A DNA stretch of 64,000 nucleotides from NCBI RefSeq assembly GCF_000261685.1, contig NZ_AJQE01000042.1, positions 1 through 64,000 of the forward strand, given 5' to 3'. This document shows, piece by piece, positions 41,551 to 61,059 of this stretch; the stretch's first letter is position 1; each line of letters starts with the position of its first letter. This DNA is from Bradyrhizobium genomosp. I (2014) (GTDB taxonomy: Bacteria > Pseudomonadota > Alphaproteobacteria > Rhizobiales > Xanthobacteraceae). The position numbers and the translations under genes are program-made. The notes under the pieces were generated by a model. That model saw only the letters and a program-made list of their open reading frames with translations. It ran no database searches and had not been told where the DNA came from.

Positions 41551-42057
41551 CTATTGCCGCGTGAGGCGAACCAGGTCCTGCCGCAGCAGATAGAAGGAGA
41601 CAGCGAGCAGGACGACATCCTTCATCAGGAAGGGCACGTTGCCCGTCATCGCGGGGAAGCCTCCCGCGGCGACGTCCCAACCCTCCGGCATGAAGGGAAT
41701 GATGGTAACGGTCGCGATGAAGGTGCCGGTCGAGCCCAGCGCTCCGAGCACGCCGAGCCGGTGGCTCCAGAAGCCCGCGAGCAACAGTGCGCCGAAGGTC
41801 CATTCCGAGACGCCGAGGAAATAGCTGGCGCCGGCGTGGCCGAACACGGGATAGAGCCACCAGATCAACGGCCCGTTGCTGATGAAGGGGACCAGCCGCT
41901 CGAACTCATATGGAAACCACTTCTGATAGCCGAAGAAGAAGAACATGATCACCATCGAGGCGCGGACGACGTGGTAGTCGAGGTCTTGCGCGAGCAGGCC
42001 GGAGCCGTTCAGCGCACGGACAATCGGGCTTTGGGCAGTTGCGGAAAGCGTAGTCAT
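41551..42057 (-). CDS. DUF417 (RclC/YkgB family) membrane protein, copy 1
   Basis: 168 residues, four or five helices. The E. coli member RclC is an inner-membrane protein of the reactive-chlorine-resistance operon. Motifs: LDYHVVRASMVIMFFFFGYQ, FISNGPLIWWLYPVFGHAGA, GVSEWTFGALLLAGFWSHRL, GSTGTFIATVTIIPFMPEGW, FPAMTGNVPFLMKDVVLLAV. AAAGGA lies 8 nt before the ATG at 42057. It follows the AhpD-like gene by 47 bp, likely one operon, which faces an RclR-like regulator. It is nearly identical in motifs to the copy at 60544. Confidence 0.88.
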   Translation of the reverse strand: MTTLSATAQSPIVRALNGSGLLAQDLDYHVVRASMVIMFFFFGYQKWFPYEFERLVPFISNGPLIWWLYPVFGHAGASYFLGVSEWTFGALLLAGFWSHRLGVLGALGSTGTFIATVTIIPFMPEGWDVAAGGFPAMTGNVPFLMKDVVLLAVSFYLLRQDLVRLTRQ

Positions 42058-42104
42058 GGTCGTGATCCTTTCATGGTTGAGATCTGACACTTCGCTCAGT
42101 GGCT

Positions 42105-42641
42105 TCACGCGACGGCGGGGAAGTCGATCTCGGTGTCGTTGATGCGGTTGAAGACGTTGGTGAACACGGTGGTGGCGAAGGCGAGGCTGATGTCGACGAG
42201 CTGTGCGTCGCTGTAGCCGGCAGCCTTGATCGCGGCGAAATCCTTGTCGCTGACCGTGCCGCTGGTGCGCGCGAGCTTGTCGACGAAGGCGACCAGCGCA
42301 TCACGCTGGGCATCGCCAGTCGGCCGACCGTCGCGGATCTGCTTCAGCACGTCCGGTGTCAGGCCAACGAGCTTTCCGAGATGGCTGTGGGCGGCGACAC
42401 AATAGTCACAGCGGGCGGCCTCGCTGATCACGAGCTTGATGATCTCCCTGTCGGACTTGGTCAGGCCTCCGGAGGCGAGCACGGTGTCTGCAGCGAGGAT
42501 GGCCTTGAGCGCGGCCGGGCCGTGGGCGGCGAGCGCCGCAAAGGTGTTCGGCACGCTGCCGATAGCCTTCTTGATCTGGGCGTAGACCTGGCCGGACGAG
42601 CCGGCGTCGGCTTCGAGGTTCGGGATGGGAAGACGGGACAT
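42105..42641 (-). CDS. Carboxymuconolactone decarboxylase family (AhpD-like) protein
   Basis: 178 residues. The AhpD-type redox centre SEAARCDYCVAAHSHLGKLV (CxxC with following His) is intact, so an alkylhydroperoxidase/thiol-disulfide role is plausible; SDREIIKLVI and VGLTPDVLKQIRDGRPTGDA are typical of the uncharacterised peroxidase-related subgroup. AAAGGAG lies 7 nt before the ATG at 42641. First gene of the apparent operon with DUF417 copy 1, divergent to the RclR-like gene, 117 bp apart. Confidence 0.92.
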   Translation of the reverse strand: MSRLPIPNLEADAGSSGQVYAQIKKAIGSVPNTFAALAAHGPAALKAILAADTVLASGGLTKSDREIIKLVISEAARCDYCVAAHSHLGKLVGLTPDVLKQIRDGRPTGDAQRDALVAFVDKLARTSGTVSDKDFAAIKAAGYSDAQLVDISLAFATTVFTNVFNRINDTEIDFPAVA

Positions 42642-42758
42642 GGTGGCACTCCTTTGGTTGGGGTGGTGAACGATTGCGGAGTGACAATATGGTCCGGGTA
42701 TGAGATATTGAATGCTACAAAGGCTACTATATATGCTCATTCGTCTCGAGAGGGTATG

Positions 42759-43751
42759 ATGGATTGGCTGAGCCGGCTGTTCGAGATGATGCCAGTGCGC
42801 GGTCGCCTGGATCTGCGCTGCTCCTACGGTGCGCCCTGGCGGATCGAGCAGGGGCCGGGCGGGGCGAATGAGATGCCCTATCACGCGGTCGTTGGTGGCT
42901 CGGCCATCTTGGACGACCCGGCCGGCGGCAAGCCGCTGCGGCTGGAAGCCGGAGACATTCTCCTGCTGCCCGGCAATCCACGACATGTCATGCACGACGG
43001 CGGCGGCGCTGCGCCGCTGAAGGCTCACAACCGCGCGTCACTCAACTTCACGATCAGCGAAAATCCCGGCTCGGACGCGCGGCTCGATCTGTTGTGCGGA
43101 CATTTTTCGATCGCCCCGCCGCATGACCGGCTGCTGCGCAGCTATCTGCCGCCGGTCCTCATCGTGCGTGCCAGCTCGCGGGCCGGCGAGCGGGATACTG
43201 CCGGGCAGCTCGCGGGCCTCGTTGCCCTGATGCGCGGCGAGGCGGCAAACGATCATCTCGGTGGCCGTGCGATGCTGAACGCGCTGTCGACGGCGATGTT
43301 CGCGCTCGTGCTCCGCCTCGCCAGCGAGACCGGGGACGCACCGCGCGGGCTGCTTGCTCTGGCAGGTCACCCGCGCCTCGCGCCGGTGGTCGCGGCGATG
43401 TTCAACGAGCCTGCGCGCGCATGGACGCTGCCCGAGTTCGCACAGCTCGCGAATATGTCGCGTGCGACGCTTGCCCGTCAATTCCAGGAGAAGGTCGGAC
43501 GTTCGCCGAGCGATCTGTTGACCGACATCCGGATGACGCTGGCAACGAATGAATTGAGAAAAGGGTCGATCTCGACCGGAGCAGTGGCGGAAACGGTCGG
43601 CTATCTGTCAGAAGCGGCGTTCCAGCGGGCGTTCAAGGCCCATATGGGCCTGACCCCTGCGCAATGGCGAAAGGCGGCGCAGGCTCCAGCGACGATTGAC
43701 GGGCTGGAGTTGGCGAGCGCAGAGGCGATATCGAGGGGCGAAAATGCATAG
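42759..43751 (+). CDS. AraC-family regulator resembling RclR (HOCl sensor)
   Basis: 330 residues. N-terminal cupin (MDWLSRLFEMMPVRGRLDLR then Cys21; LRLEAGDILLLPGNPRHVMH; LLCGHFSIAPP) and C-terminal double helix-turn-helix (LPEFAQLANMSRATLARQFQ; GAVAETVGYLSEAAFQRAFK). From memory E. coli RclR begins MDALSRL, has Cys21, and a second sensing Cys in a CG dipeptide before the same kind of strand. Both positions are present here (Cys21 and Cys113-Gly). The second of two adjacent ATGs is used because it gives this register and better spacing to GAGAGGG. Divergent to AhpD-like/DUF417, as rclR is to rclABC. Confidence 0.85.
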   Translation: MDWLSRLFEMMPVRGRLDLRCSYGAPWRIEQGPGGANEMPYHAVVGGSAILDDPAGGKPLRLEAGDILLLPGNPRHVMHDGGGAAPLKAHNRASLNFTISENPGSDARLDLLCGHFSIAPPHDRLLRSYLPPVLIVRASSRAGERDTAGQLAGLVALMRGEAANDHLGGRAMLNALSTAMFALVLRLASETGDAPRGLLALAGHPRLAPVVAAMFNEPARAWTLPEFAQLANMSRATLARQFQEKVGRSPSDLLTDIRMTLATNELRKGSISTGAVAETVGYLSEAAFQRAFKAHMGLTPAQWRKAAQAPATIDGLELASAEAISRGENA

Positions 43752-43775
43752 GCAAGCGCGCTCGAGGCGGCAACG

Positions 43776-44093
43776 TCAGCATCCACGGCAGATGATCAGC
43801 CTTCGATCCAGCATCTGATCGCGTCGTTGCTGCTCGCGCTCCCAGGCCGACAGAGAACCCGATTGAGGCGCGTCGGCGCGGCTCGGTTGGTGGTGGCCGA
43901 CCGGAGCGAGCCAGGGCAGGTGCGACGTCAGCTCGGCCGAAGCCAAATGCTCGGCCGCACGCGCCGGCAGGTCGGGAAGAACGTCGATGGAGGTGTTTCG
44001 ATCGGCCGCATGCGCGGGCGCCAGTAGCGCGACGAGGACAAGGCCTGCAAACGCGGAACGGATCGAGTTGGTTTGGTTCGAGCTATGGGACAT
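43776..44093 (-). CDS. Small exported protein with ICRGC C-terminus, copy 1
   Basis: 105 residues. MSHSSNQTNSIRSAFAGLVL and VALLAPAHA form a signal peptide; the mature part is polar with PWLAPVGHHQPSRADAPQ, a helix (LSAWEREQQRRDQM) and the end LDRRLIICRGC. The last residues LDxRLxICRGC recur in the protein at 59549-59803. AGGGAG before ATG. It is convergent with the RclR-like gene, 24 bp away. Function unknown; the two terminal Cys could form a disulfide or bind a metal. Confidence 0.78.
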   Translation of the reverse strand: MSHSSNQTNSIRSAFAGLVLVALLAPAHAADRNTSIDVLPDLPARAAEHLASAELTSHLPWLAPVGHHQPSRADAPQSGSLSAWEREQQRRDQMLDRRLIICRGC

Positions 44094-44288
44094 GTTGGCG
44101 CTCCCTTGGTGGAGGCTCGGAATGAGCGGCTCCTTGCGGGGCACGATAGTCATGGAGGCGAAGGGCTGAATGCTGCGCGATCTCGAAGATATGCTCTTTC
44201 GTCTCGCAAGCATCGATGAACGGGACCGGTCGTGGGTCGAAGCGGCCTCTTGCGCCGGGCACGACCTGTCTGGACGTTGCCGCACGCG

Positions 44289-44720
44289 TCAAGCCTTGCG
44301 GTAGCCTCGTTCCTGGAGCACCCAGCTATTGCCATCCGGGTCCGAAAAGTCGGCGAAGCTGGCGTAGTCCCCGCGCGCGGGATCGAGGCCCGGGGCGAAG
44401 CGTCCGTCCCACGCGGCGATCGGCGTCTTGTGCCTGATATCGCTGACCTGAACGCCGCGTTCCAGCAGGTGGCGGCGCGCGGCCTCGAGGTCCGTGACGA
44501 CGAGATAGGCGTTACGAAGCGATCCAGGGGGCGCGTCGGTGATGGCCTTGCCGATCTGGATCGAGCAGCTCGAGCCGGAGGGCGTGAGCTGCACCACGCG
44601 GAATGTGCCATTCGGTGAATAGTCGACGTCGAGCACGAAGCCGACCTGATCGACATAGAAGCGCAGCGCCCGCTCGACGTCCGCCACGGGAACGGTAATC
44701 ACCTCGAACGAAAACTTCAT
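44289..44720 (-). CDS. VOC (glyoxalase/bleomycin-resistance fold) family protein
   Basis: 143 residues, two beta-alpha-beta-beta-beta repeats: VITVPVADVERALRFYVDQV GF... and NAYLVVTDLEAARRHLLER. C-terminal DPDGNSWVLQERG is the usual end with Asn and Glu. The first metal-ligand position is Val-x-Val instead of His, so metal-dependent catalysis is uncertain. It is 28 bp from the following MOSC gene on the same strand and might be its partner downstream in the transcript. Confidence 0.85.
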   Translation of the reverse strand: MKFSFEVITVPVADVERALRFYVDQVGFVLDVDYSPNGTFRVVQLTPSGSSCSIQIGKAITDAPPGSLRNAYLVVTDLEAARRHLLERGVQVSDIRHKTPIAAWDGRFAPGLDPARGDYASFADFSDPDGNSWVLQERGYRKA

Positions 44721-44748: not shown

Positions 44749-46512
44749 CTACAAATCGATCACGACGTCCCGAACCGGCTGTGAGCAGCAAATCAGAAGA
44801 TTGCCGTCGGCCGGCTGATCGAGCGGTAGCGGCTCATAGGCCACCGCGCCGGAAATCAAGCCGCTCTCACAATTGTGACAGACGCCCGTCCGGCACGACC
44901 AACGGACCGGAACGTCGCATGCCTCGGCCAACTCCAAAATGCTTGCGTAAGCCGATGGCTTCCAATGGACGGCGATACCGCTTCGCGCGAAGGATACCAG
45001 CGGGCCGCTGTCGGCGGCGTCCTCGGGCGGGTGCGGAGCTCGCATGGCTGCGCCGACGATGCCGGGCGTCAATGATTCGCCGCCATTGAAGATTTCCATA
45101 TGAACCCGCCCGGGAGACATACCGAACGCTGCGAGCGCCTGTTTCATGTCCGCCATGAAACGAGTCGGCCCGCAGAGGTAGACATCCGCCTCATGCGGGA
45201 TGCCGATGTCCTTGAAGGCCGGTTGCGACAGACGGCCAGGAGCATCGAAATCTTCGCCCAACTTGTCGCGGGGATCCGGTCTGCTGTAGCAGACGAAGCT
45301 GCGGCCCTGGGGGAGGGCAAGCATCAGGCGGCGTACTTCATGCGCGAACGGATGATGCCGCCCGTCGCGCGCCGCATGCAGCCAGAAAACCTGTCGTGTC
45401 GCGCGGGCCGCTGCCAGGGCGTACAACATGGCCAGAACGGGCGTTGCCCCGATCCCCGCGCTGAGCAACACCACCGGCCGCTCCCCGGGTTCCAGGGTAA
45501 ATCCTCCTCGCGGAGAACTCACCTCGACAATATCGCCTGCGTGGATGTGCTCGTTCAGGTAATTTCCGGCCGCTCCATTCGGCTCGATCTTGACGCTGAT
45601 CCGATAGCCCTCTGTCGATCGAGGCCCCGAGATTGAGTAGCTGCGAATGAGCGGCGGGCCCTCGGTTCGCGGAAGGCGCAGGACCACGTACTGGCCGGGC
45701 AGAGGCGGCGGCAGTGGCTCACGATCCGGATGCTGCAGTGAAAGAGAGATGACGTCCAAGGCCTCTCGATCGATCGACGTAACGACGAGCGGCCGAAATC
45801 CCGGAGAGACCGGATGTGACGCGGCTGCCGGAGCAAGGCCTGCGTTGCCGCTCCTCCTCGCATCACTCGTCTGGCTCTGAAGCAATGCCTCAAATGACGC
45901 GCGCCATCCCTGCGAAAGCGCCTCGATCCGCAAGGCGCGCTCCAGTCGATCGCGCGGGTGATTGGGCGAATAGAGCAGCGCGTTGATCTCGGCGACGGTT
46001 ATCCGCTCGTCTGCCTCTCCCACCTTCACGATTTCGTCGCCGGCGCCGACCTCGCCTTCGCGCAGGACGCGGAAGTAGAACCCTGGCCGTCCGCTGGACG
46101 TCAGCAGTGCCGGCATCTTCGGCTCGTTGGTCCGAATGCCGACGCGATAGCAGGTCACGCGCGGTTGAGTGACCTCGAACACGGCGCTGCCGATTTGATA
46201 GCGATCGCCTACGCAAACGGCATCGTCGGGCAGTCCTTCGATCGTGAAATTCTCGCCGAACTGCCCGTGGACGAAATCGGTGCGGCCCAACTGCTTCTGC
46301 CAGTGGCGATATGCTTCAATTTGGTAGACGAAGACCGCTCGTTGTTCGCCTCCGTGGCCGCCCAGATCGCCTTGACCATCTCCGTCCAGGTTCAATCGGC
46401 CGACCCGACAGCGGCCATGCACCGGATTTTTCCAGATCCCGGTGCGTATGGTGCGATTCTTCCAGGCGATGTTGCGAGGAAGTCCGACATTCACCGACAG
46501 GAGTCGCGCCAT
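44749..46512 (-). CDS. MOSC - FAD/NAD(P) ferredoxin reductase - 2Fe-2S fusion
   Basis: 587 residues, three modules. MOSC domain (1 to about 215, YiiM-like; GGHGGEQRAVFVYQIEAYRH, FGENFTIEGLPDDAVCVGDR, with a Cys in VTQPRVTCYRVGI). FNR-like FAD domain (about 240-350; LIRSYSISGPRS) and NAD(P) domain (VVLLSAGIGATPVLAMLYAL; DVYLCGPTRFMADMKQ). C-terminal plant-type 2Fe-2S with Cys ligands in WSCRTGVCHNCESGL and a later CC. MOSC proteins act on molybdenum-cofactor N-hydroxylated compounds (YiiM, mARC), so a self-contained N-reductase is likely. GGAG before ATG. Confidence 0.92.
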   Translation of the reverse strand: MARLLSVNVGLPRNIAWKNRTIRTGIWKNPVHGRCRVGRLNLDGDGQGDLGGHGGEQRAVFVYQIEAYRHWQKQLGRTDFVHGQFGENFTIEGLPDDAVCVGDRYQIGSAVFEVTQPRVTCYRVGIRTNEPKMPALLTSSGRPGFYFRVLREGEVGAGDEIVKVGEADERITVAEINALLYSPNHPRDRLERALRIEALSQGWRASFEALLQSQTSDARRSGNAGLAPAAASHPVSPGFRPLVVTSIDREALDVISLSLQHPDREPLPPPLPGQYVVLRLPRTEGPPLIRSYSISGPRSTEGYRISVKIEPNGAAGNYLNEHIHAGDIVEVSSPRGGFTLEPGERPVVLLSAGIGATPVLAMLYALAAARATRQVFWLHAARDGRHHPFAHEVRRLMLALPQGRSFVCYSRPDPRDKLGEDFDAPGRLSQPAFKDIGIPHEADVYLCGPTRFMADMKQALAAFGMSPGRVHMEIFNGGESLTPGIVGAAMRAPHPPEDAADSGPLVSFARSGIAVHWKPSAYASILELAEACDVPVRWSCRTGVCHNCESGLISGAVAYEPLPLDQPADGNLLICCSQPVRDVVIDL

Positions 46513-56290: not shown

Positions 56291-56818
56291 CTACCGCATC
56301 GCTTCCTGTCGGACAATCCCGTTCTGGGCCGGGGACAGTTCGGCCGCTGCCCGGAGGATATCCTGCTTGAGCAGATAGACCGAAGCCGCAAGCAGGACGA
56401 CGTCCTTCACGAGGAAGAGGAACGGCAACGTGGCCGCGGGAAAGCCGCCGGCCGGCGCGGCCCAGGCGTCGGGGAAAAACGGAATGATCGTCACGGTGGC
56501 GACATAGGTCGCGCATGAACCCAGCGATCCCAGGATCGCCAGTTTTCGGTTCCAGAAGCCGAGCAGAAGAAGCAATCCGAACGACAATTCCGCGGAACCC
56601 AGGAAGTAGGCCGCCCCGCGCACGCCAAACACCGGATACATCCAGAAGATCAGAGGCCCGTGGCTGATGAAGGGAATCAACGCATGCGCTTCGTAGTCGA
56701 ACCATTTCTGGCAGCCGAAGACGAGGAACACGACGATCATCGCCACACGCGTGGCATGGTAGTCAAAATCGCTTCTGACCAGATCGAGCTCGGACAGTTT
56801 CTTTATGAGATGGTCCAT
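56291..56818 (-). CDS. DUF417 (RclC/YkgB family) membrane protein, copy 2
   Basis: 175 residues, diverged copy: FDYHATRVAMIVVFLVFGCQ, FISHGPLIFWMYPVFGVRGA, GSAELSFGLLLLLGFWNRKL, ATVTIIPFFPDAW and LPFLFLVKDVVLLAASVYLL. Family helices are all kept. The start at 56818 is chosen; 56833 and GTG 56845 are alternatives in frame. It stands next to the haloacid-dehalogenase-like gene rather than to an AhpD-like gene. See copies at 41551 and 60544. Confidence 0.87.
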   Translation of the reverse strand: MDHLIKKLSELDLVRSDFDYHATRVAMIVVFLVFGCQKWFDYEAHALIPFISHGPLIFWMYPVFGVRGAAYFLGSAELSFGLLLLLGFWNRKLAILGSLGSCATYVATVTIIPFFPDAWAAPAGGFPAATLPFLFLVKDVVLLAASVYLLKQDILRAAAELSPAQNGIVRQEAMR

Positions 56819-57090
56819 CTGATGTCGTCTCATCCTCGAGATCACGGATTGACGCCGAGCGGCGCCTCGACGTCCGTCGTGACTTGAACAGTAACCAGGG
56901 TTCGAAAGCCGCGCTGTGCGTGGGTTATCGCGCGTTTCTCAGAATTGTGCTGTTCGGCTGGAGGAGACCGCGGTCGGCTTGGCCGGACCTCACTCGCGTC
57001 CCGGCATCCGCGAATGACATTGCGAGACGACGACGCCGGCTTGCTGCTGCGCGCGCTCCGTCTTCGGTGGTCCGCGTTGCCGCCGCAAAC

Positions 57091-59548: not shown

Positions 59549-59803
59549 ATGCAACTCCGTTCATCCCTCATCCTGAGCTTCGCCGCCATTCCCCTGACTG
59601 CCCTGGCGGATCCTCTCCCCGCGCCGTCGCCGAAAGCGCCGAGCCCGGCTGAGAGCGTACACGTGCAGCCGCGCGGCGATGCGTTCATGCCGAACTCAGT
59701 CGCCGAAGATGCGTTGCAGAAGCGCATAACAGACTTCAATCAGAAGCAGGAAGGCCTGGACGCAGATCTCGACAAGAGGCTGAAAATCTGCCGCGGATGT
59801 TGA
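59549..59803 (+). CDS. Small exported protein with ICRGC C-terminus, copy 2
   Basis: 84 residues. Signal peptide MQLRSSLILSFAAIPLTALA, a Pro-rich linker (DPLPAPSPKAPSPAESV), then a helix DALQKRITDFNQKQEGLDAD and LDKRLKICRGC. The terminal LDxRLxICRGC is shared with the protein at 43776-44093, otherwise the two are unlike. GAGG before ATG. It follows egtD by 133 bp on the same strand, and the HWE kinase and DUF417 copy 3 come next, so it may be in the same transcript. Confidence 0.78.
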   Translation: MQLRSSLILSFAAIPLTALADPLPAPSPKAPSPAESVHVQPRGDAFMPNSVAEDALQKRITDFNQKQEGLDADLDKRLKICRGC

Positions 59804-59828
59804 TCGATATCGGGCTCGGCAAACAGCA

Positions 59829-60524
59829 ATGGGTCTGCACATGAGGCGCACTGTCACCGATTCGTTCCGCGACGGAAGCGGGTGCACGCGCTACGAGCGG
59901 ATTGCCCCGATCCGGGACGACTCGTTCGAGCTGCTCGTCAGGGAATTGCAGCATCGAATGCGCAACATCCTCAGCGTGGTGCTGTGCTTCGTGAACAATA
60001 CCGATGCGAACACGACCGCCGATCTTCGCGCGGCGCTCTCGGCGCGGATCGCGACCCTGTCCGATGCCTACAGGATGATCGGCTCGGTGCGGGAGCAGCG
60101 CGTGTCTCTTGCGGAGCTGCTGGAGCGAACGCTCGAGCCGCACGCGATGTTCCAAACGGGCCGCATTCTGCTGGCGGGGCCGGACCTCACGCTGGAGCCG
60201 CACATCGCCCTGTCGATGCACGTCATCATCCATGAGTTGGCGACGAATGCGAGCAAGTACGGCGCGCTGACCTCGACGACGGGAGCCGTCGAGGTGAGTT
60301 GGGAGAGCCCGCCCTGTCTTGGCGGACAAGGTCTTGCCATCCAGTGGCGCGAACGCGGCGGACCGAGGGTGACCAGGCCGGAGCGCAGAGGTTTCGGCAC
60401 GCAGTTGATCGCAAAGGCCTTGCCGGGTGCGCAGGTCGATCTCGACTTCGCACCCGACGGTCTTGTCTGCCGGCTTCTGATCGATCTCGGCCAGACGTCG
60501 ACTACGCTGGGGGCTGTCAGCTAG
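59829..60524 (+). CDS. HWE/HisKA_2-type histidine kinase without sensor domain
   Basis: 231 residues. The H-box LVRELQHRMRNILSVVLCFV has the HR-N pattern of the HWE class; MHVIIHELATNASKYGALTS is the ATP-lid N-box, and RGFGTQLIAKALPGAQVDLD the G-box region. The N-terminal about 35 residues are too short for a PAS or GAF domain. These kinases often feed PhyR or stand-alone receivers, so the single-domain receiver at 57357 is a candidate partner. No membrane segment. Confidence 0.88.
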   Translation: MGLHMRRTVTDSFRDGSGCTRYERIAPIRDDSFELLVRELQHRMRNILSVVLCFVNNTDANTTADLRAALSARIATLSDAYRMIGSVREQRVSLAELLERTLEPHAMFQTGRILLAGPDLTLEPHIALSMHVIIHELATNASKYGALTSTTGAVEVSWESPPCLGGQGLAIQWRERGGPRVTRPERRGFGTQLIAKALPGAQVDLDFAPDGLVCRLLIDLGQTSTTLGAVS

Positions 60525-60543
60525 GATCAGGAGGATCGACATC

Positions 60544-61059
60544 ATGAGTACATTGACGAGTGTCCCGCGGAAATCGTTCGCAAGCAGGCTGCCGATATCG
60601 GAACTCCTGGCGGGAGATCTGGATTACCACGTGGTCCGAGCGTCGATGGTGATCCTGTTCTTCTTTTTCGGGTATCAGAAGTGGTGGGCGTACGAGGCCG
60701 ATCGTCTGGAACCCTTCATCAGCAACGGTCCCCTGATCTGGTGGCTCTACCCCGTTTTCGGCCATCAAGGTGCCAGCTGGTTTCTCGGCGTCTCCGAATG
60801 GACCTTTGGCGCCTTGATATTCGCGGGCTTCTGGAGCAAGCGCCTCGGCATTCTGGGCGCCCTTGGATCGACCGGTACCTTCATCGCGACGGTCACGATC
60901 ATTCCGTTCATGCCGGATGGTTGGGACGCTTCAGCGGGAGGCTTTCCGGCGATGACAGGCAACGTCCCGTTCCTGATGAAGGATGTCGTGCTGCTCGCGG
61001 TGTCGTTGTATCTTCTAAAGCAGGATGCGGCGCGGGTCCTGAGTCGACCTGAGGCTTGA
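60544..61059 (+). CDS. DUF417 (RclC/YkgB family) membrane protein, copy 3
   Basis: 171 residues: LDYHVVRASMVILFFFFGYQ, FISNGPLIWWLYPVFGHQGA, GVSEWTFGALIFAGFWSKRL, GSTGTFIATVTIIPFMPDGW, FPAMTGNVPFLMKDVVLLAV. Closest to copy 1 at 41551. It follows the HWE kinase by 19 bp on the same strand, so it is probably the last gene of an egtD/ICRGC/kinase/DUF417 transcript. Confidence 0.88.
   Translation: MSTLTSVPRKSFASRLPISELLAGDLDYHVVRASMVILFFFFGYQKWWAYEADRLEPFISNGPLIWWLYPVFGHQGASWFLGVSEWTFGALIFAGFWSKRLGILGALGSTGTFIATVTIIPFMPDGWDASAGGFPAMTGNVPFLMKDVVLLAVSLYLLKQDAARVLSRPEA

Follow-up and report, generated by a model that had tools for sequence, protein, structure and literature searches.

In Escherichia coli, the AraC-family regulator RclR is activated through oxidation of Cys21 and Cys89 (reviewed in PMC7464077). 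The rclABC genes under its control encode the flavin disulfide reductase RclA, the small periplasmic protein RclB (DUF1471) and the DUF417 protein RclC; RclB and RclC, both of them cysteine-free, are thought to act together, by a mechanism that is unknown (PMC12096828). In Pseudomonas aeruginosa, rclR (PA14_07340) adjoins rclX (PA14_07355), an AhpD-like gene which is regulated by RclR, is among those most induced by hypochlorous acid (HOCl) and hypothiocyanous acid (HOSCN), and is needed for protection against both (PMC7950407). This work concerns a related locus in a stretch of 64,000 nucleotides from Bradyrhizobium genomosp. I (2014) (contig NZ_AJQE01000042.1, positions 1 to 64,000), hereafter the window. 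An RclR-like regulator stands there beside genes for an AhpD-like protein, a DUF417 protein and a small, apparently exported protein that ends in CRGC, and the four may well belong to one thiol-switch regulon of the Rcl type.

The RclR-like regulator and its divergent partners

The genes of the locus are the following:

42759..43751, + strand: RclR-like AraC-family regulator, with Cupin_6 and HTH_18 domains and the cysteines Cys21 and Cys113
42105..42641, - strand: AhpD-like/CMD "peroxidase-related" protein, RclX-like, with a CxxC at residues 78-81, Glu66 and His85
41551..42057, - strand: DUF417 membrane protein of the RclC family, 47 bp downstream of the CMD gene
43776..44093, - strand: type-A CRGC small protein, with an apparent signal peptide and a conserved C-terminal LDRxLxICRGC

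The CMD and DUF417 genes, probably one operon, form a divergent unit opposite the regulator, from which they are separated by the gap at 42642-42758; the CRGC gene is convergent with the regulator and is preceded by a gap at 44094-44288. An earlier note on this DNA had pointed to these features, and domain searches and alignments confirmed all of those that it named, the export of the small ICRGC-ending protein behind the regulator being judged by eye from the apparent signal peptide. The likeness to E. coli lies in Cys21 and a second cysteine of the regulator, in a divergent operon with a DUF417 gene, and in a small exported protein in the predicted regulon. In contrast, the window has an AhpD-like protein and none of RclA was seen at the locus, and its CRGC protein, unlike RclB, has cysteines and a separate promoter. 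With P. aeruginosa the locus shares an RclR-homologous AraC regulator beside an AhpD-like CxxC protein; there, however, rclX is a single-gene operon, and neither a DUF417 nor a CRGC gene is mentioned in the extracts of PMC7950407.

The regulator starts with MDWLSRL, as the earlier note had read, and is 27% identical to RclR of E. coli MG1655 (E 7e-39). Its sole two cysteines align with the two of RclR, Cys21 with Cys21 and Cys113, part of a Cys-Gly pair, with Cys89, which bears out the match proposed in that note. A PDB search with the regulator gave matches to its DNA-binding part only, starting at about query residue 198. Just two Cupin_6 matches are found in its own genome, the regulator being one of them. 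For comparison, a sample of cupin AraC regulators was drawn from 398 genomes of the phylum. It comprises the 29 loci returned besides that of the window, plus the 40 regulators ranked next, the ranking being by likeness to an alignment with the window protein among its members; the proteins of the window, of E. coli and of contig C31 of the own genome bring these 69 to 72 rows. The column of Cys113 holds a cysteine in 65 of the 72, and the Cys-Gly was therefore rejected as a mark of RclR, while that of Cys21 does so in 25 of the 69 sampled regulators; Cys21 is thus more diagnostic than the Cys113 equivalent, and only Cys21 discriminates. In a tree of 74 rows (two Bradyrhizobium rows being added), built by a quick method without bootstrap and with E. 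coli RclR marked as a long branch, the window regulator and E. coli RclR fall within one 21-row set with a Shimodaira-Hasegawa-like approximate likelihood ratio (SH-aLRT) support of 88, all of its rows having Cys21; the enclosing 23-row set (SH-aLRT 96) adds two rows without it. In this tree the regulator thus stands nearer to RclR than the remaining Cupin_6 AraC proteins do, and the absence of such a special kinship, which the earlier note had named as a possible refutation, is not what was found.

A second RclR-like regulator with Cys21 was noticed in the same genome (L018; contig C31, 62637-67100). It is divergent from a SoxC-type sulfite dehydrogenase gene (TIGR04555 above cut-off) and accompanied by cytochrome-c-like and DUF302-like proteins (both by eye) and by another DUF417 gene, possibly another Rcl-type effector set; the pairing of regulator and SoxC-like gene recurs in L139.

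The CMD protein scores 87.1 bits with the TIGR01926 "peroxidase-related enzyme" model (cut-off 81.8), and the CDYC motif (Cys78/Cys81) with Glu66 and His85 supplies the CxxC, Glu and His of an AhpD site. We take the spacing of these four residues to fit that of AhpD, in the numbering of MtAhpD. P. aeruginosa RclX likewise has four of the five MtAhpD catalytic residues (PMC7950407). The DUF417 protein, second in the unit, reaches 94.4 bits with PF04224 (cut-off 27) and 28% identity to E. coli RclC; with the NCBIfam RclC equivalog model it scores 64.7 bits, below the cut-off of 275. DUF417 was found in 26 of the 398 genomes; in at least 3 of these (own genome, G204, G208) it adjoins one of the cupin AraC genes matched, for which reason it is regarded as an optional partner. 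The own genome has four DUF417 genes, three of them within 20 kb in the window; the third (56291-56845), 54% identical to the first, adjoins a haloacid-dehalogenase-like gene (by eye). As the earlier note had stated, no RclA was seen at the window locus; the own genome has four matches to E. coli RclA, all on other contigs and 30-32% identical, presumably the level of ordinary disulfide reductases.

A CMD neighbour, defined as a gene within 1 kb of the regulator with phmmer E < 1e-3 (some matches are weak, and one is downstream and not divergent), accompanies 15 of the 25 sampled regulators with Cys21 versus 4 of the 44 without it (Fisher p 1e-5). The CMD protein also matches 540 plasmid records, and nine of the 25 listed were inspected. 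In four of the nine (Neorhizobium petrolearium L256, Pseudomonas L257, Paraburkholderia caribensis L259 and Bradyrhizobium CB82 L264) CMD has an RclR-like gene as its immediate neighbour; such a gene lies 2.9 kb from it in L260 and, cut off, at 3.8 kb in L258. L261 and L262 have weak matches to a GlxA-type regulator at least 2.6 kb from CMD, and at L263 a regulator match near CMD was looked for and none was found. The Pseudomonas plasmid protein is 57.6% identical to the window CMD, and a DUF417 gene lies two genes away from it. In Neorhizobium and Paraburkholderia an RclA-like flavoprotein gene follows CMD; the Neorhizobium protein is 35% identical to E. coli RclA, with another oxidoreductase model as its best NCBIfam match and RclA third, below cut-off. 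The pairing of a divergent CMD gene with an RclR-like regulator is found in alpha-, beta- and gammaproteobacteria alike, in some cases with an RclA-like gene besides; the loci with all three are intermediates connecting the E. coli and P. aeruginosa versions. Of what the earlier note had proposed, the thiol (AhpD-like) effector with a DUF417 partner stands; the replacement of RclA by AhpD as an alphaproteobacterial rewiring is not supported as it was put, in view of the published P. aeruginosa RclR-RclX pair (PMC7950407), which made the pairing of AhpD with an RclR-like regulator already known, and of a CMD pairing that is common across the phylum as sampled. L179 (G431 C157) shows another pairing of CMD with DUF417, outside this class: the two genes lie on one strand, the DUF417 gene being of a type close to the RclC of E. 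coli, and some 1 kb upstream stands no more than a weak AraC match (E 7e-12).

A genome scan with the regulator returned 46 loci: 44 with Bradyrhizobium titles, a distant Calditrichaeota match (L064) and L029. Some genomes contribute repeatedly: B. erythrophlei GAS478 supplies four loci, and B. viridifuturi SEMIA 690 and B. stylosanthis BR 446 supply two apiece. With L064 excluded, CMD and DUF417 genes both occur on the expected strand within the fetched flanks of 38 of the 45 loci, a few displaced or split, so that the synteny for which a survey had been suggested is found in most Bradyrhizobium-type loci and exceeds chance; CMD only is present in five (one at a contig end) and neither gene in two. 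L029, a short contig titled uncultured Thermomonosporaceae, carries a regulator 82% identical to that of the window beside an apparent glutaredoxin-thioredoxin reductase fusion, and is probably mis-binned or chimeric. One more locus is carried by Bradyrhizobium sp. CB82 on a conjugative plasmid of 900 kb. Among the 10 same-genus genomes of the phylum sample, four have no regulator-profile match at E 1e-20, and just the own genome and G112 pass E 1e-100; the RclR-like locus is accessory in Bradyrhizobium.

A putative operator shared with the CRGC gene

A strong conserved footprint lies upstream of the regulator in an alignment of 46 loci (the window and 45 others, two of them without CMD). In the window it corresponds to a putative two-box operator, which also occurs in the CRGC promoter:

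42730..42748, + strand: putative operator box 1, regulator-CMD gap, TATATGCTCATTCGTCTCG
42708..42715, + strand: putative operator box 2, regulator-CMD gap, TTGAATGC, 14 bp before box 1
44188..44206, + strand: putative operator box 1, CRGC promoter, GATATGCTCTTTCGTCTCG, 94 bp upstream of the CRGC start, opposite strand
44166..44173, + strand: putative operator box 2, CRGC promoter, CTGAATGC, 14 bp before box 1, as at 42708-42748

On the regulator strand the window site reads TTGAATGC, 14 bp, TATATGCTCATTCGTCTC. An operator matrix built solely from regions upstream of regulators gave two strong sites in the 64-kb window, at 42730 (score 32.9) and 44188 (25.8), the next best scoring 6.3. All 31 type-A CRGC copies, several of which come from the same genome fetched twice, carry the operator on the opposite strand 92-97 bp upstream, with scores of 12.9-28.7 (the distance is direct in 29 copies; in the window and L026 it was counted from an upstream ATG (34)). 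It is found above none of 15 core and none of 3 type-B copies (best score -0.1), the type-B gene of the window included. Four further CRGC copies, outside the 31, score 14.0 (L053), 14.0 (L237), 24.1 (L240) and 20.3 (L242). A further set of 20 loci contained 12 recognised type-A copies, four of other types and four loci without a recognised tail; eight of the 12 type-A copies score at least 12.9, the other four score 7.8, 6.1 and twice below 0, with the best match 95-98 bp upstream, and the operator is present in none of the four copies of other types. Both sets together thus give 0 of 22 for CRGC copies that are not type A.

In the 7.9-Mb own genome, the operator 17-mer has three matches with at most two mismatches, namely both window sites and a third within a reading frame resembling an AMP-binding ligase; the control with the reversed pattern gave none. 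A search with three mismatches across 146 genomes of the genus was discarded as too loose, since 145 of the 146 match, with background. In other genera the box stands before regulators or CMD genes in L082 (19.4), L089 (29.1) and Neorhizobium (28.4), and in weaker form in Pseudomonas (9.4), Burkholderia (10.4) and Paraburkholderia (6.7). The putative operator is sharp enough for predicting regulon members from sequence, and its sharing suggests that the type-A CRGC gene belongs to the regulon of the RclR-like regulator. The earlier note had noticed the ICRGC protein and had not made the tie to the regulator, yet the promoter of its gene shares the putative operator. An operator at the second RclR-like locus (L018) was considered and rejected, no site there scoring above 1.1. 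Stray operator sites were seen in L030, at 8966 and 11248, where a transposase-like gene separates them from a degenerate CRGC tail nearby, and in L038, at 749, beside an apparent relic of a CRGC leader.

The type-A CRGC protein of the window has 105 residues, two of them methionine, and ends in LDRRLIICRGC. Across an alignment of 16 sequences (A1) the hydrophobic start, an HxQP stretch and the tail are kept, and Cys102 and Cys105 are invariant. This alignment gave no credible match against Pfam and PDB, and two members of the family scanned against NCBIfam gave none; the small protein is probably disordered. The family occurs in 142 of 146 Bradyrhizobium genomes, with up to 17 matches in one; in a sample of the order it is present in 6 of 6 same-genus and 0 of 193 other genomes (up to 23 candidates per genome being scored). 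Three subtypes can be distinguished: a core copy beside a lysine-2,3-aminomutase-like gene (by eye), the operator-bearing, RclR-linked type A, and type B. The type-B gene of the window (59549-59803) lies 0.7 kb from the second DUF417 gene, 77% identical to that at 41551-42057, with an apparent histidine kinase gene (by eye) between, the three occupying 59549-61059; the type-B neighbour recurs in L284. The family is expanded in G595, with 17 matches, and in G623, with 13; four further G595 copies (L269-L272) all have an operator-like site. For the core copy a stress promoter of its own was considered, since most copies have a conserved block 85-90 bp upstream, and rejected, as the block matches the coding end of the upstream gene; the EcfF consensus (from the extracts of PMC3420878) was considered for the same block and dropped. 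Among the open-licence papers listed, searched by titles and the starts of abstracts and with subscription papers mostly outside, none relevant to the locus in Bradyrhizobium and none describing the operator or the CRGC family was found. The small, apparently exported CRGC protein is the new element of the predicted regulon.

Neighbouring genes encode a glyoxalase-fold protein, a MOSC/ferredoxin-reductase protein and an aldo-keto reductase (the last by eye). The 44749-46512 protein consists of a MOSC/YiiM part fused to a flavin/2Fe-2S reductase part, and its gene adjoins the glyoxalase-fold gene; genes related to these two are likewise found close to the CRGC gene in L231, L235 and L238.

A proposed thiol-switch regulon and competing explanations

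Homology, the cysteine alignment, conserved synteny, operator sharing and the rarity of the operator in the genome make it fairly probable that the RclR-like protein controls the AhpD-like reductase, the DUF417 protein and the exported dithiol CRGC protein as an Rcl-type thiol-switch regulon. The regulator would sense a cytoplasmic thiol-oxidising chemical (HOCl, HOSCN or a similar oxidant) through the Cys21/Cys113 pair, whose oxidation would turn it into an activator at two promoters, where it is predicted to bind the shared two-box operator. The divergent promoter would drive the AhpD-like dithiol oxidoreductase and the DUF417 membrane protein, and the second, about 1.5 kb away, the small exported protein with its C-terminal CRGC dithiol. 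The AhpD-like protein may reduce the oxidant or oxidised thiols in the cytoplasm, with the DUF417 and CRGC proteins acting at and beyond the inner membrane; the locus suggests such a three-part defence against thiol-oxidising chemicals. As an extracytoplasmic dithiol, the CRGC protein could be an oxidant sink, a thiol-redox relay or a soft-metal ligand, in the position of RclB in E. coli; its part as a "sink" or "relay" is inferred. It is offered only tentatively that the CRGC proteins are a new exported dithiol family, core to Bradyrhizobium and locally expanded. One subtype would have come under the RclR-like thiol switch to serve outside the cytoplasm as a sink or redox relay for reactive chlorine or thiocyanate species, and together with DUF417 it would form a cysteine-based counterpart of the RclB-RclC pair. 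For a small sink protein the nearest functional precedent is MrpX/BcrX of Azospira and Brucella, which belong to a hypochlorite-response regulon and are proposed to act as a sacrificial sink (PMC8315932). They are, however, methionine-rich and have an extracytoplasmic function (ECF) sigma promoter, whereas the window protein has a terminal dithiol, with few methionines, and a putative AraC-type site; no MsrPQ was found among the six window proteins scanned. Periplasmic oxidation by HOSCN showed no difference in E. coli rcl mutants (PMC12096828), which counsels caution against a simple periplasmic shield.

Several observations weigh against the regulon as proposed. The regulator scores 140 bits with the NCBIfam RclR equivalog model, below the cut-off of 400, and is therefore named RclR-like and not RclR. 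Two further groups with Cys21 (five rows with CMD neighbours and four without) fall outside the RclR-side set of the tree, and a tree-aware test of the link between Cys21 and CMD has just three independent pairs; the association is mostly shared descent. A type-A CRGC gene went unrecognised in the fetched flanks of 30 of the 45 loci. At three mismatches the own genome has seven operator matches versus two for the reversed control, and the E. coli rclA-rclR gap shows weak resemblance, its best operator score lying below 0. The box also precedes Cupin_6 regulators without Cys21 (L102, 20.0; L141, 9.3; L149, 14.7); the motif is therefore one of a wider regulator family and no proof of RclR-type sensing. 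Lastly, P. aeruginosa PAO1 is said to be without homologs of any E. coli Rcl protein (PMC12096828), a statement that conflicts with the naming of RclR in PMC7950407.

The same regulon could answer instead to an organic electrophile (quinone, aldehyde or isothiocyanate) or another small ligand, handled by the AhpD-like and DUF417 proteins, which appears rather unlikely. The glyoxalase-fold, MOSC/ferredoxin-reductase and aldo-keto reductase neighbours would suit such a signal, and a ligand is probably what many of the Cupin_6 AraC proteins lacking Cys21 sense; moreover, Bradyrhizobium in soil or nodules is not known to encounter neutrophil HOCl. On the other hand, the regulator keeps the cysteine pair, its sole one, and an AhpD-like partner of this type matters for HOCl and HOSCN in P. 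aeruginosa (PMC7950407). A doubtful alternative concerns the CRGC protein alone, which might be a small peptide, modified or binding soft metals (Cu, Zn, Hg), that shares the promoter element and has no role as a redox effector. Exported peptides that end in a CxxC are able to bind metals, and a core copy exists apart from the Rcl locus, so that the function of CRGC need not depend on that locus; yet the operator is specific to the RclR-linked subtype, and no metal or peptide-modifying gene was found among the six window open reading frames scanned. Finally, the CRGC gene could lie outside the regulon, with the shared motif being a chance copy or an element of promoters in general, which is improbable. 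Box 1, about 25 bp before the regulator start, could be part of a core promoter, but the motif at the CRGC gene points away from it, and the next gene on that side (44289-44720) runs in the same direction as the CRGC gene, for which reason the motif does not serve a + strand gene there as promoter. The box spacing is, besides, identical at both sites, and against this explanation stand also the scarcity of the motif at two mismatches or fewer and its absence from core and type-B CRGC promoters.

Significance for Rcl-type systems

With a DUF417 protein and a small exported dithiol protein apparently in one regulon, the putative Rcl-type thiol-switch locus of Bradyrhizobium would offer a direct handle on the mechanism of RclB/RclC protection in E. 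coli. It also points to reactive-chlorine-like or thiocyanate-derived stress in the life of soil and plant-associated bacteria.

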